This document shows positions 50,405 through 53,507 of a DNA stretch of 64,000 nt, in pieces (the stretch's first letter is position 1; every line of letters begins with the position of its first letter). This DNA is from Hellea balneolensis DSM 19091 (GTDB taxonomy: Bacteria; Pseudomonadota; Alphaproteobacteria; Caulobacterales; Maricaulaceae), in contig NZ_AUAC01000007.1 in the NCBI RefSeq assembly GCF_000428525.1, positions 62,001 through 126,000 on the forward strand, written 5' to 3'. The position numbers were made by a program, and so were the translations under genes. The notes beneath the pieces were generated by a model. That model had not been told where the DNA came from, searched no databases, and saw only the letters and a program-made list of their open reading frames with translations.

Positions 50405-50491
50405 AAATTAAAATAGGGCTTAACTCGCAAAAACGTTATTGTCATTTAATCCCGTTTGTGGCTAACCGCAGATCAAAAGAGGGACTTTCAT

Positions 50492-51208
50492 ATGCGTATT
50501 CGATTTATCCTTATAATTATAATTGCGCTGCTGCTGACGGCGTGTGGGTCAAAAGATCCCGCGACTCCTGCAAGTACGGCGGCGCTAAAAACTGAATTGG
50601 CCGCCTTTGAGAAAGCGCCGCTTTTCAAAACAGCGATTGATTATAATGCCATTCCCCGCGTGAAGGGCTGTGAAGACGAAGTGCCTCGTGATATGAAATA
50701 TCATAATTGCCGCGATTCTAAACTCATCTATACCCGCGCTCTGGGCACTGCTAATGCCATGAATAAGCCGCTCATGGTCATTTTCGGATTTAATAAATGC
50801 CCTTATTGCATCAAGCTCGAGTCAGAAATTATGGACCCGCGTAACCCCTTGCGCAGTCATGATGTAGCGCAATATTTCTCTAAGGCTCAGTTCGATAAAT
50901 ACCAAACCGAAGAAGATTCAGTCAAAATACCCTTTGTCCGTCTCCATGCGCGCTCCGATCACGGCCTCGCTTTGGCCGATGAACTCGGCATAACAGAGAT
51001 GGCGGAAGAGGCCGGCTGGCACCGCGTCTGGTCACCCTTTGTCGTTTTCGTAAATCCAAAGACAGGCGAGATGACGTCAGAGAGTGAGTGGGAAGCTAAA
51101 GAGATTTACTGTGACTGGGCGGCAGGTGTGGCCGTGTCGCTGGAGAAGATTGGTATGGCGGAGGTGGGGGAGCCTGTGACAGAGAGGAAGCGATGTCCTA
51201 AAACTTAA
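50492..51208 (+). CDS. Thioredoxin-fold lipoprotein with CPYC motif
   Basis: A 238-residue lipoprotein. The lipobox LTAC places the lipidated cysteine at residue 18. A thioredoxin-like domain starts near residue 85 with KPLMVIFGFNKCPYC; C103 and C106 form the redox pair, and the C-terminal part has a SPFVVFV stretch with the cis-proline. Two more cysteines (C60 and C73) precede the domain. It probably acts in the periplasm on disulfides or cytochrome assembly, but the partner is not known. The start is ATG 50492, with GAGGG nine bases upstream. The REP-like cassette follows it by 11 bases. Confidence 0.85.
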   Translation: MRIRFILIIIIALLLTACGSKDPATPASTAALKTELAAFEKAPLFKTAIDYNAIPRVKGCEDEVPRDMKYHNCRDSKLIYTRALGTANAMNKPLMVIFGFNKCPYCIKLESEIMDPRNPLRSHDVAQYFSKAQFDKYQTEEDSVKIPFVRLHARSDHGLALADELGITEMAEEAGWHRVWSPFVVFVNPKTGEMTSESEWEAKEIYCDWAAGVAVSLEKIGMAEVGEPVTERKRCPKT

Positions 51209-51218
51209 CTCTCTCTCC

Positions 51219-51250
51219 CGTCATCCTCGGGCTTGACCCGAGGACCCATC
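51219..51250 (+). repeat. REP-like unit C, left copy
   Basis: CGTCA, then TCCTCGGG-CTTGA-CCCGAGGA (8-bp stem, five-base loop), then CCCATC. Its exact reverse complement is at 51584-51615. This repeat type is reminiscent of dispersed intergenic repeats in other Alphaproteobacteria. Confidence 0.9.
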
Positions 51251-51262
51251 AAACTACTTTAA

Positions 51263-51568
51263 CTATTCATCATATATAAACTCTCCACTCTCGGCATCCA
51301 ATCTATGCCAATGCGGGTTCGCTTTCTCGATGAGTTCTATCTTCCAAGCGCGCAGCCATTTTTTCATCGTTTTCTCACGCCTGATAGCGGTTGCCATATC
51401 CTCATACTCTTCAAAGCAAACGAGCCGAATGACGTTATATCTCGCCGTGAAGCCTGAGAAATGTTTGTTTTCGTGCTGTTCGAGACGACCGGGCAGGTCT
51501 GATGTTACGCCAATATAGAGCGTGCCATGAATGCCGGAGGCGAGTATGTATACGCAAGGTCTTATCAT
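51263..51568 (-). CDS. GIY-YIG domain nuclease, intact active site
   Basis: A 101-residue single-domain GIY-YIG protein. The core is complete: Y7 in CVYIL, Y18-I19-G20 in LYIGVTSDLPGRLEQH, R28, and a glutamate-rich segment CFEEYEDMATAIRREKTMKKWLRAWKIELI landmarks with the expected catalytic glutamate. Such small proteins are nicking or cutting enzymes in some systems, but most are uncharacterised. The ATG has no good ribosome binding site; the leader comes almost entirely from the inverted repeat 15 bases upstream. The gene is enclosed by perfect inverted REP-like repeats, which suggests that the enzyme recognises them (inference). Confidence 0.88.
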   Translation of the reverse strand: MIRPCVYILASGIHGTLYIGVTSDLPGRLEQHENKHFSGFTARYNVIRLVCFEEYEDMATAIRREKTMKKWLRAWKIELIEKANPHWHRLDAESGEFIYDE

Positions 51569-51583
51569 AGCTCAGTTTCGCAG

Positions 51584-51615
51584 GATGGGTCCTCGGGTCA
51601 AGCCCGAGGATGACG
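51584..51615 (-). repeat. REP-like unit C, right copy (inverted)
   Basis: The exact reverse complement of the copy at 51219-51250. It lies 15 bases upstream of the GIY-YIG start codon and so may also hold part of its promoter or leader. Confidence 0.9.
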
Positions 51616-51701
51616 AGAGCTAGGGAGCACCACCCGGCGCGGCGTAGCCGCTTCGGCCATTCCTTATTTTTTAATTCCGCGGATTAAAAATTCCTAACGG
51701 A

Positions 51702-53507
51702 TCACGAGTCGTCCATTTTCAAAGCCGCAATAAACGCTTCCTGCGGAATTTCGACCTTACCGAATTGGCGCATCCGCTTCTTACCTTTTTTCTGCTTATC
51801 CAGCAGTTTGCGTTTTCTTGACGCATCGCCGCCATAGCACTTCGCGGTCACGTCTTTGCGCATCGCGGCGATGGTTTCGCGGGCAATGATGCGTCCTCCA
51901 ATAGCGGCTTGGACAGGGATTTTGAACATGTGTCTTGGGATAAGGTCTTTTAGGCGCTCGCACATTTGGCGGCCGCGAGATTCGGCGTTATTACGGTGGA
52001 CGAGCATTGAGAGCGCGTCGACGGGATCGCCATTGACGAGGATACTCATCTTGACCAGGTCGCCTTCTTTCAGACCGATGCTTTGATAATCGAAACTGGC
52101 ATAGCCTTTGGAGACGGATTTTAGGCGGTCATAGAAATCAAAGACGACTTCATTGAGCGGCAATTCATATTCCACCATGGCGCGGGAGCCGACATAAGAC
52201 AGGCCCGTCTGCACGCCGCGGCGATCTTGGCAGAGTTTTAAGATGCCGCCGAGATAATCATCCGGCGTCATGATGGTGGCTTTAATCCACGGCTCTTTAA
52301 TGTGCTCAATCTGCATCACGTCAGGCATATCGGCGGGATTGTGAAGCTGTTGCGACTCACCATTGCGCATGTCCAGTGTATAGACAACGGAGGGCGCTGT
52401 GGTGATAAGGTCGAGGTCAAATTCTCGTTCCAGACGCTCTTGGATAATTTCCAAATGGAGCAGCCCTAAAAAGCCGCAACGGAAGCCAAAGCCTAGCGCG
52501 GCAGAGGTTTCCATCTCATAGCTGAAGCTCGCATCATTGAGGCGCAGACGGCCCATAGCGGCGCGTAAATCTTCGAAATCGGCCGCATCGACTGGGAAGA
52601 TACCACAAAAGACGACGGGCTGTGCGGGCTTAAAGCCGTCCAGCGCGGTCTCAGTCGGGCGCTTATCTTCGGTAATTGTATCGCCCACAGCGGCGTCGGC
52701 GACTTCCTTGATAGAGGCCGTGAGGAAACCCACTTCGCCGGGGCCGATGGAATCTGTGTCGGTCGGTTTAGGTAGGAAATAACCCACCTTATCGACGGTG
52801 TAATTCGCGCCGGTATTCATGGTACGGATGCGCATGCCTTTTTTGACAGTGCCTTCGATCACGCGGAAGAGCACCACAACGCCCATATATTGATCATACC
52901 ACGCATCGACGAGCATGGCTTTTAAGGGCTTAGAGGGGTCGCCTTCTGTGGGAGCGGGGAGCTTGTCGCAAATCGCCTCCAATACCTCTTGAATGCCGAT
53001 GCCGGATTTGGCGGAGCACTCTATGGCTTCACTGGCATCAATACCGATGACTTCTTCAATTTGAGCGCGCACACGGTCAGGTTCAGCCGCGGGAAGGTCG
53101 ATTTTATTCAGGACAGGCACGATTTCATGGTCGTGCTCAATCGCTTGATAGACATTGGCGAGCGTTTGTGCTTCCACGCCTTGCGACGCATCCACGACAA
53201 GGATCGACCCTTCGCAAGCCGAAAGACTTCGCGACACTTCATAAGCAAAGTCCACATGACCCGGCGTGTCCATCAGGTTTAGAACATAATCTTCGCCGTC
53301 TTTGGCTTTATATTCGAGACGCACCGTCTGTGCCTTAATTGTAATGCCGCGCTCTTTTTCAATATCCATATTGTCGAGCACTTGCTCTGACATCTCGCGG
53401 TCAGATAGCCCTCCCGTAAAGGAAATCAGCCGGTCGGCTAAAGTCGATTTCCCGTGATCAATATGCGCCACGATGGAAAAGTTACGGATATTTTTTTGCA
53501 CTGTCAT
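51702..53507 (-). CDS. lepA: Elongation factor 4 (LepA)
   Basis: A translational GTPase that acts on ribosomes and in 30S assembly under stress. The P loop is AHIDHGKS (14-21), switch [10 protein letters not shown], and the guanine specificity motif NKID. The LepA-specific C-terminal domain is present and ends in [21 protein letters not shown]-type sequence (last 30 residues). Length, 601 residues, is standard. It is single; an AT-rich near-palindrome around CCGCGG (51668-51690) between the stop and the cassette could aid termination. Confidence 0.97.

Follow-up and report, generated by a model that had tools for sequence, protein, structure and literature searches.

CGTC-REPs, as described in PMC3733652, are hairpins with an unpaired CGTC tag (variants TGTC and CCTC), a stem of 8 or 9 bp in which the first two positions are almost always complementary A-T, a loop of 4 or 5 nt, and a CCA tail. 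They form inverted dimers, occur in many copies per genome, and are known from five phyla. They are mainly alphaproteobacterial, and the dRS3 repeats of Neisseria and the RPE-4 and RPE-6 repeats of Rickettsia are included among them. The same study (Di Nocera et al. 2013) states that no transposase appears to be dedicated to the superfamily, and leaves open whether RAYTs or other transposases mobilise the repeats. A related arrangement covered there is the REPtron, in which a single gene lies between REP hairpins cognate to it and gene-less REPs are found elsewhere. GIY-YIG homing endonucleases reside in introns and inteins. The searched passages of PMC1564403 mention neither palindromes nor COG2827, and in those of PMC12306157 the sequence CGTC appears only within a reference. 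Our searches of the open-access literature, several of them covering the 10-25 top-ranked of as many as 607 records, showed among the records listed nothing that links GIY-YIG genes with REPs, and a query joining the two gave no records.

The window analysed here is a 64,000-nucleotide stretch of DNA from the alphaproteobacterium Hellea balneolensis DSM 19091. It carries a short unit that shares with REPtrons the placement of one gene between REP hairpins and the presence of gene-less REPs elsewhere. However, a GIY-YIG nuclease gene and the tag CGTC take the places of the HUH tyrosine transposase and the tag GTAG given for REPtrons in PMC3733652. With the homing endonucleases it shares the catalytic fold and a probable nuclease-linked mobility, although the window gene is intergenic and bounded by hairpins. 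The features of the locus are as follows.

51219..51615, no strand: whole unit CGTC...GACG, 397 bp
51219..51250, + strand: left CGTC-REP hairpin, from the sequence, repeat and pattern searches, and folding
51263..51568, - strand: predicted GIY-YIG nuclease gene, 101 aa, from the ORF and its PF01541 match
51584..51615, - strand: right CGTC-REP hairpin, the exact reverse complement of the left hairpin
51215..51218, no strand: CTCC, continues the inverted repeat outward at the cost of one mismatch, from the repeat search
51616..51619, no strand: AGAG, partner of the outer extension CTCC, from the repeat search
50456..51208, + strand: neighbouring gene for a thioredoxin-like protein, a weak Pfam match under the cut-off
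51702..53507, - strand: neighbouring gene for a 601-aa protein, from the ORF

We take the 601-aa neighbour to be LepA/EF-4. The first-pass annotation reported perfect 32-bp inverted repeats around a 101-codon GIY-YIG gene, each repeat being a palindrome. Direct reading and a repeat search confirmed that the 32-bp arms are identical and inverted, and they lengthen to 36 nt (51215-51250 and 51584-51619) if one mismatch is allowed. They lie 12 bp past the stop codon and 15 bp ahead of the start codon. A pattern search of the window permitting up to three mismatches recovered the two arms only, compared with none in 100 shuffles. Folding likewise verified the palindromes, with an 8-bp stem TCCTCGGG/CCCGAGGA and a CTTGA loop in each arm, and DNA folding z scores of -4.35 and -3.44 for the two strands. 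A ninth stem pair is absent from the window copy because the outermost A faces a C. In the left hairpin the CGTC tag points outward, and stem and loop are followed by a CCCATC tail towards the gene. The unit thus has terminal inverted repeats, a feature of insertion sequences and MITEs.

The window repeat fits the CGTC-REPs in structure, with the same tag, stem, loop, CCA-type tail (CCCATC) and inverted pairing. It does not fit them in copy number, and the label rests on structure because the exact 19-bp core, searched with up to three mismatches in the whole genome (3.21 Mb, 10 contigs), occurs only at the two arms rather than in many copies. The earlier description of the repeats as REP-like needs one correction: they fit the CGTC-tagged superfamily, which is separate from the GTAG REPs of RAYTs. 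The count also shows that the repeat is not common in this genome, and a background genome-wide repeat is ruled out as the explanation of the arms. The wider hairpin type gave 19 model matches in the window genome at E ≤0.001 with strict filters and, among the matches listed with laxer filters, 31 at E ≤1. Of 12 stretches around such matches, several contain hairpins without a gene, single or paired, whose stems resemble those of the paralogues L004 and L009, and none of the 12 carries the window's own hairpin type. No Y1 transposase (PF01797) matched in the window genome at 1e-5.

The gene product is a predicted GIY-YIG nuclease, judged by its match to PF01541 (56.7 bits against a cut-off of 22.6, E 3e-15) and its conserved active-site residues. 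The first-pass annotation remarked on intact Tyr, Gly and Arg; Y7, Y18, G20, R28, H32, E65 and N84 are each conserved in at least 98% of 211 relatives. Some of these seven are presumed to be catalytic. The predicted structure has a mean pLDDT of 88. Small UPF0213-type proteins (1zg2 and 1ywl) are the closest solved GIY-YIG relatives by sequence profile. In a fold search that gave 133 matches at E ≤10 and none at 0.001, 1zg2 was the first fold match (E 4e-3), and Slx1 and the UvrC N-terminal domain were further GIY-YIG matches. An NCBIfam search with the protein matched no family. Membership of an anti-phage family was rejected, as the protein matched no PADLOC family at 0.01, and so was an origin as phage cargo, as it had no match at 1e-6 in 50,697 phage records.

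Relatives were gathered from the genus, family and class, a species-level genome collection, and plasmid records, and the sample consists of best matches and hand-picked places rather than a random draw. A motif finder specifying GTC, a hairpin and CCA was applied to 237 loci with a protein match, and 211 genes were kept after 16 near a sequence end and 10 duplicates were dropped. One 29-aa broken ORF (L137) is included in the 211-gene counts (density, neighbouring ORFs, residues, geometry and relaxed tags) and left out of the 149-gene correlation, paralogue test, pair sums and edge comparisons described below. The finder left the base ahead of GTC free, and among 113 distinct hairpins 92 have C there.

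Genes of this subfamily are flanked by inverted repeats more often than control positions are. In a first test, the 300 bp upstream of each gene were aligned with its 300 bp downstream in reverse complement; 60 of 128 genes scored at least 42, versus 45 of 1,280 swapped flanks and two of the 1,677 positions shifted within those loci. Strict-motif hairpins are present within 400 bp of 150 of the 211 genes, on both sides of 97 and on one side of 53. Close to the gene, at 0-50 bp, their density is 9.48/kb; at 800-1400 bp it is down to 0.10/kb, and the flanks of neighbouring ORFs have 0.32/kb (nine hairpins in 557 flanks). A reversed-sequence control gave 21 matches versus 453. With relaxed tags, hairpins lie on both sides of 104 genes and on one side of 56, versus 14 two-sided and 156 one-sided cases among 1,707 shifted pseudo-genes (reversed control, 77 versus 535). 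Counting against the unit reading, the strict motif finds nothing within 400 bp of 61 of the 211 genes, and with relaxed tags 51 genes are still without a hairpin. Variant tags escape the strict motif, and the window-genome paralogues L005, L008 and L009 were scored as having none despite adjoining inverted hairpins. Six loci with other types of GIY-YIG gene served as a control and yielded no strict-motif hairpins; one of them (L010) has a 14-bp inverted match exceeding its 50 shuffles. Based on these comparisons, the evidence for the gene-hairpin association and the unit structure is strong.

The geometry of the unit is tight. As in the window, the nearest tags both point outward in 62 of the 97 two-sided cases (both inward in 15, mixed in 20), and the median length of these 62 units is 403 bp, close to the 397 bp of the window unit. 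Of the nearest upstream hairpins with outward tags (n=91), 37 end 18-21 bp ahead of the start codon, and for 63 the distance is no more than 30 bp. Downstream, 68 of 83 such hairpins begin no more than 30 bp past the stop codon.

Several loci depart from this arrangement or have a distinctive setting. In Photobacterium sp. GJ3 (L184:3456-5792), a regular array of fifteen dRS3-type hairpins adjoins the GIY-YIG gene. The relative in Neisseria gonorrhoeae (L174) has three dRS3-type hairpins within ~750 bp, in a single orientation rather than as the standard inverted pair. On a Planktothrix agardhii plasmid (L185), a relative without strict-motif hairpins has an MmeI-type restriction gene on one side and a DISARM helicase gene on the other. 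In a Novosphingobium MAG (L096:2782-3183), the unit lies between two genes, apparently within an operon; judging from the protein starts, we take these genes to be nuoD and nuoC.

The hairpin sequence covaries with the protein. The nearest upstream and downstream hairpins have identical first eight stem bases in 50 of 97 cases, compared with a shuffled mean of 3.8 and maximum of 11. Within genomes that have at least two two-sided genes, a gene's own upstream and downstream hairpins match in nine of nine pairs, versus two of 12 pairs crossed between paralogues. Between genomes, protein identity correlates with hairpin similarity (r 0.329, 149 genes; null maximum 0.074 in 2000 permutations). Moderate support comes from a paralogue test in 10 genomes, where a gene's hairpins were closer to those of its best foreign homologue than the hairpins of its paralogues were in 15 comparisons, with five losses and six ties (p 0.02). 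Among pairs lacking a homologous neighbouring protein, a hairpin is shared by 101 of 148 at a protein identity of at least 70%, 280 of 991 at 60-70%, and 824 of 8,518 below 60%, in sums whose pairs are not independent. These comparisons suggest that the hairpin sequence tracks the protein more than the genome. The pattern holds only in part for the window protein itself, in that its near relatives L037, L038 and L039 have the same CCTCGGG stem and others that are equally or less distant carry different stems. Judging from this covariation, the hairpins of GIY-YIG units would be cognate to the enclosed gene, as in REPtrons. A covariation count from alignment A1 was discarded as evidence because it is circular, the hairpins having been selected as palindromic.

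Hairpins of the gene-adjacent types also occur away from the gene. Two such hairpins, hand-chosen from 17 loci, were searched for in 241 alphaproteobacterial genomes. The hairpin from genome G147 has 29 copies there with up to one mismatch and was found in 27 of the 241 genomes, three of which have more copies. The hairpin from genome G329 has 37 copies there, the most of all 241, and was found in 12 genomes. A further genome (G334) harbours an orphan repeat population, with one CGTC-REP in 25 copies and no GIY-YIG match at 1e-8.

At the level of whole genomes, the gene and the repeats co-occur. The same 241 genomes of the class, each at least 95% complete, were searched with the protein and with a hairpin covariance model (R1) that favours hairpin types near these genes because it was built from hairpins found beside them; repeat counts were listed up to ~31 per genome. 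Repeats were detected in 101 genomes and the GIY-YIG protein (1e-8) in 76; 64 genomes have both and 128 have neither, an odds ratio of 18.5 (p 4e-20). With kinship reduced to one genome per family (n=127), the corresponding table is 34, 8, 15 and 70, and the odds ratio is 19.8, versus 1.2 for Y1 transposases. Counting against the association, 37 of the 101 repeat-positive genomes have no GIY-YIG match at 1e-8, and 12 of the 76 GIY-positive genomes have no repeat matches. Y1 transposases (PF01797), used as a stand-in for the RAYT type, are present in 49 of the 241 genomes, 24 of them with repeats (odds ratio 1.43, p 0.17). A Y1/RAYT transposase was therefore rejected as the enzyme of the CGTC-REPs for want of association.

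Movement as a unit is supported by sequence comparisons at its boundaries and at sites with and without it. For the boundaries, 42 independent pairs without homologous neighbours were taken from 401, using each locus once. On the left, homology stops no more than 5 bp from the tag at both loci of the pair in nine of 24 testable pairs; on the right, this is so in six of 23. In 31 of 42 pairs on the left and 31 of 42 on the right, the edge is in or at the gene and is therefore uninformative about boundaries. Where homology reaches 30 bp or more beyond the gene on the upstream side, nine of 11 pairs end at the tag in both loci; where it reaches at least 15 bp downstream, six of 11 do so. Among six multi-copy genomes compared, only G105 (74% complete) has copies that are alike outside the gene. 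Five related copies were fetched from different sites in this genome, and two of them are 94.9% identical over 433 bp, hairpin to hairpin, with 81-93% identity for the other pairs. One copy is without its upstream hairpin and another has an early stop. The strict motif missed these copies because their tag is CGCTC instead of CGTC. At two G105 loci (L322 and L326), a second hairpin is present within the upstream hairpin, which looks like insertion of one repeat into another.

Between folP and thiD, a hairpin-bearing unit is found in three of 30 loci, namely in the window genome (L301), G046 and G054; one locus (L314) ends too early for judgement. In G003, of the window genus, a small gene overlaps the folP stop codon at the place taken up in the window genome by the unit and ~40 extra bases. 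Downstream of folP in G014 (L316) is a hairpin pair without a gene, which could be an internally deleted copy of the unit or an independent insertion. In G011 and G100, a related gene in the opposite direction occupies the folP-thiD site without strict-motif hairpins. G052, the closest relative of G046 in this set, has no unit, but by eye a remnant of the right hairpin seems to persist, which points to loss of the unit rather than an untouched site. In Shinella, three records have ~115 other bases instead of a ~680-bp stretch holding the unit, and two further records are without the longer intergenic stretch altogether.

The first-pass annotation had also proposed looking for empty sites in close relatives of the window genome. 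None is clean at the window locus itself: in G006 and G007, of the window genus, matches to ileS and lepA are ~50 bp apart, and the thioredoxin-like gene is absent along with the unit. Sites with and without the unit are instead provided by folP-thiD and Shinella. Nor was the gene found at the same locus without repeats, as none of the 29 other lepA loci of the family that were read showed a GIY-YIG gene beside lepA in the stretch covered. No target-site duplication was seen by eye at folP or in G105, no site without the unit was base-exact among those compared, and no single conserved target site was seen among the loci compared.

The proposal that a GIY-YIG gene and inverted repeats of its own form a minimal unit thus gains support beyond the window locus from the hairpin density, covariation, edges and G105 copies. 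In our view the unit is probably a minimal autonomous REP element, in which outward-facing CGTC-REP hairpins would bound a gene for a nuclease that recognises them, and which would be mobile as a block and give rise to gene-less pairs. The nuclease most likely acts on the hairpins, and from the covariation between gene and hairpin we infer that this small GIY-YIG enzyme would recognise the hairpin type of its own unit. It may bind the hairpin when the DNA is single-stranded or forms a cruciform, and place a nick beside the CGTC tag at both ends, such that the unit would be moved or copied as one block. To our knowledge, GIY-YIG enzymes form no covalent protein-DNA intermediate, and host gap repair, annealing or break repair would therefore have to do the rejoining, in place of enzymatic strand transfer. 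Short gene-less hairpin pairs would then be non-autonomous derivatives of the unit. The earlier suggestion that the nuclease recognises and spreads its repeats accordingly fares differently in its two parts. Recognition is suggested by the covariation. Spread is deduced from other units and genomes, since the window repeat has two copies only and, with no copies of its own type elsewhere, the window unit has not spread in its genome.

Other explanations account for parts of these data. The nuclease might manage CGTC-REPs rather than mobilise them, by resolving or trimming REP cruciforms and hairpins at replication, and the gene-side hairpins might regulate the gene through the same recognition. 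Genomes with CGTC-REPs would then keep the nuclease for REP upkeep, as the co-occurrence allows, and the structure-specific nuclease Slx1 is among the weak fold matches. The 37 of 91 upstream hairpins located 18-21 bp before the start codon could affect translation. However, boundaries at the level of the tag at unrelated sites, multiple copies in G105, and paralogues with different hairpins in one genome all fit a self-propagating unit better, and we regard the managing role as unlikely. Alternatively, the hairpins could be ordinary RNA elements of the gene, either terminators or mRNA stabilisers, that are inherited alongside it. Their short and often fixed spacing to start and stop codons agrees with this, and transcription of the hairpins is possible. 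We nevertheless judge this explanation very improbable, given that positions 51100-51720 of the window have no terminator-like sites (shuffle mean 0.6), that hairpins are rare at neighbouring ORFs, and that hairpins of the same sequence are dispersed in the two genomes tested, G147 and G329.

The GIY-YIG gene might instead be a passenger caught between two CGTC-REPs that are moved by another enzyme, as could be imagined from the 20 genomes, including G334, that have at least five repeat matches and no GIY-YIG match at 1e-8. Such a passenger would have to come from one subfamily trapped repeatedly, with hairpins that track its protein. Moreover, the six other GIY-YIG loci, although few, have no strict-motif hairpin, and the Y1 transposases, the sole alternative enzyme family tested, are not associated with the repeats. 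This origin therefore appears improbable to us.

The proposed self-propagating unit has a bearing on the CGTC-REPs as a whole. For this superfamily PMC3733652 found no associated transposase gene, whereas here a GIY-YIG subfamily is tied to the repeats, which suggests that this subfamily is a concrete candidate for their missing enzyme partner. A broader reading, to which we give about even credence, is that such units form a new class of mobile DNA. They would be ~400 bp long and bounded by hairpins, with a stand-alone GIY-YIG nuclease, cutting at the CGTC tag, as their sole enzyme, would spread through host repair, and would be the source of CGTC-REPs, including the dRS3 repeats of Neisseria. 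We know of no other transposon-like element that has a GIY-YIG nuclease as its only enzyme. If correct, the units would be a transposon-like DNA element of this kind, and would represent a second, independent solution to the partnership between REPs and an enzyme.
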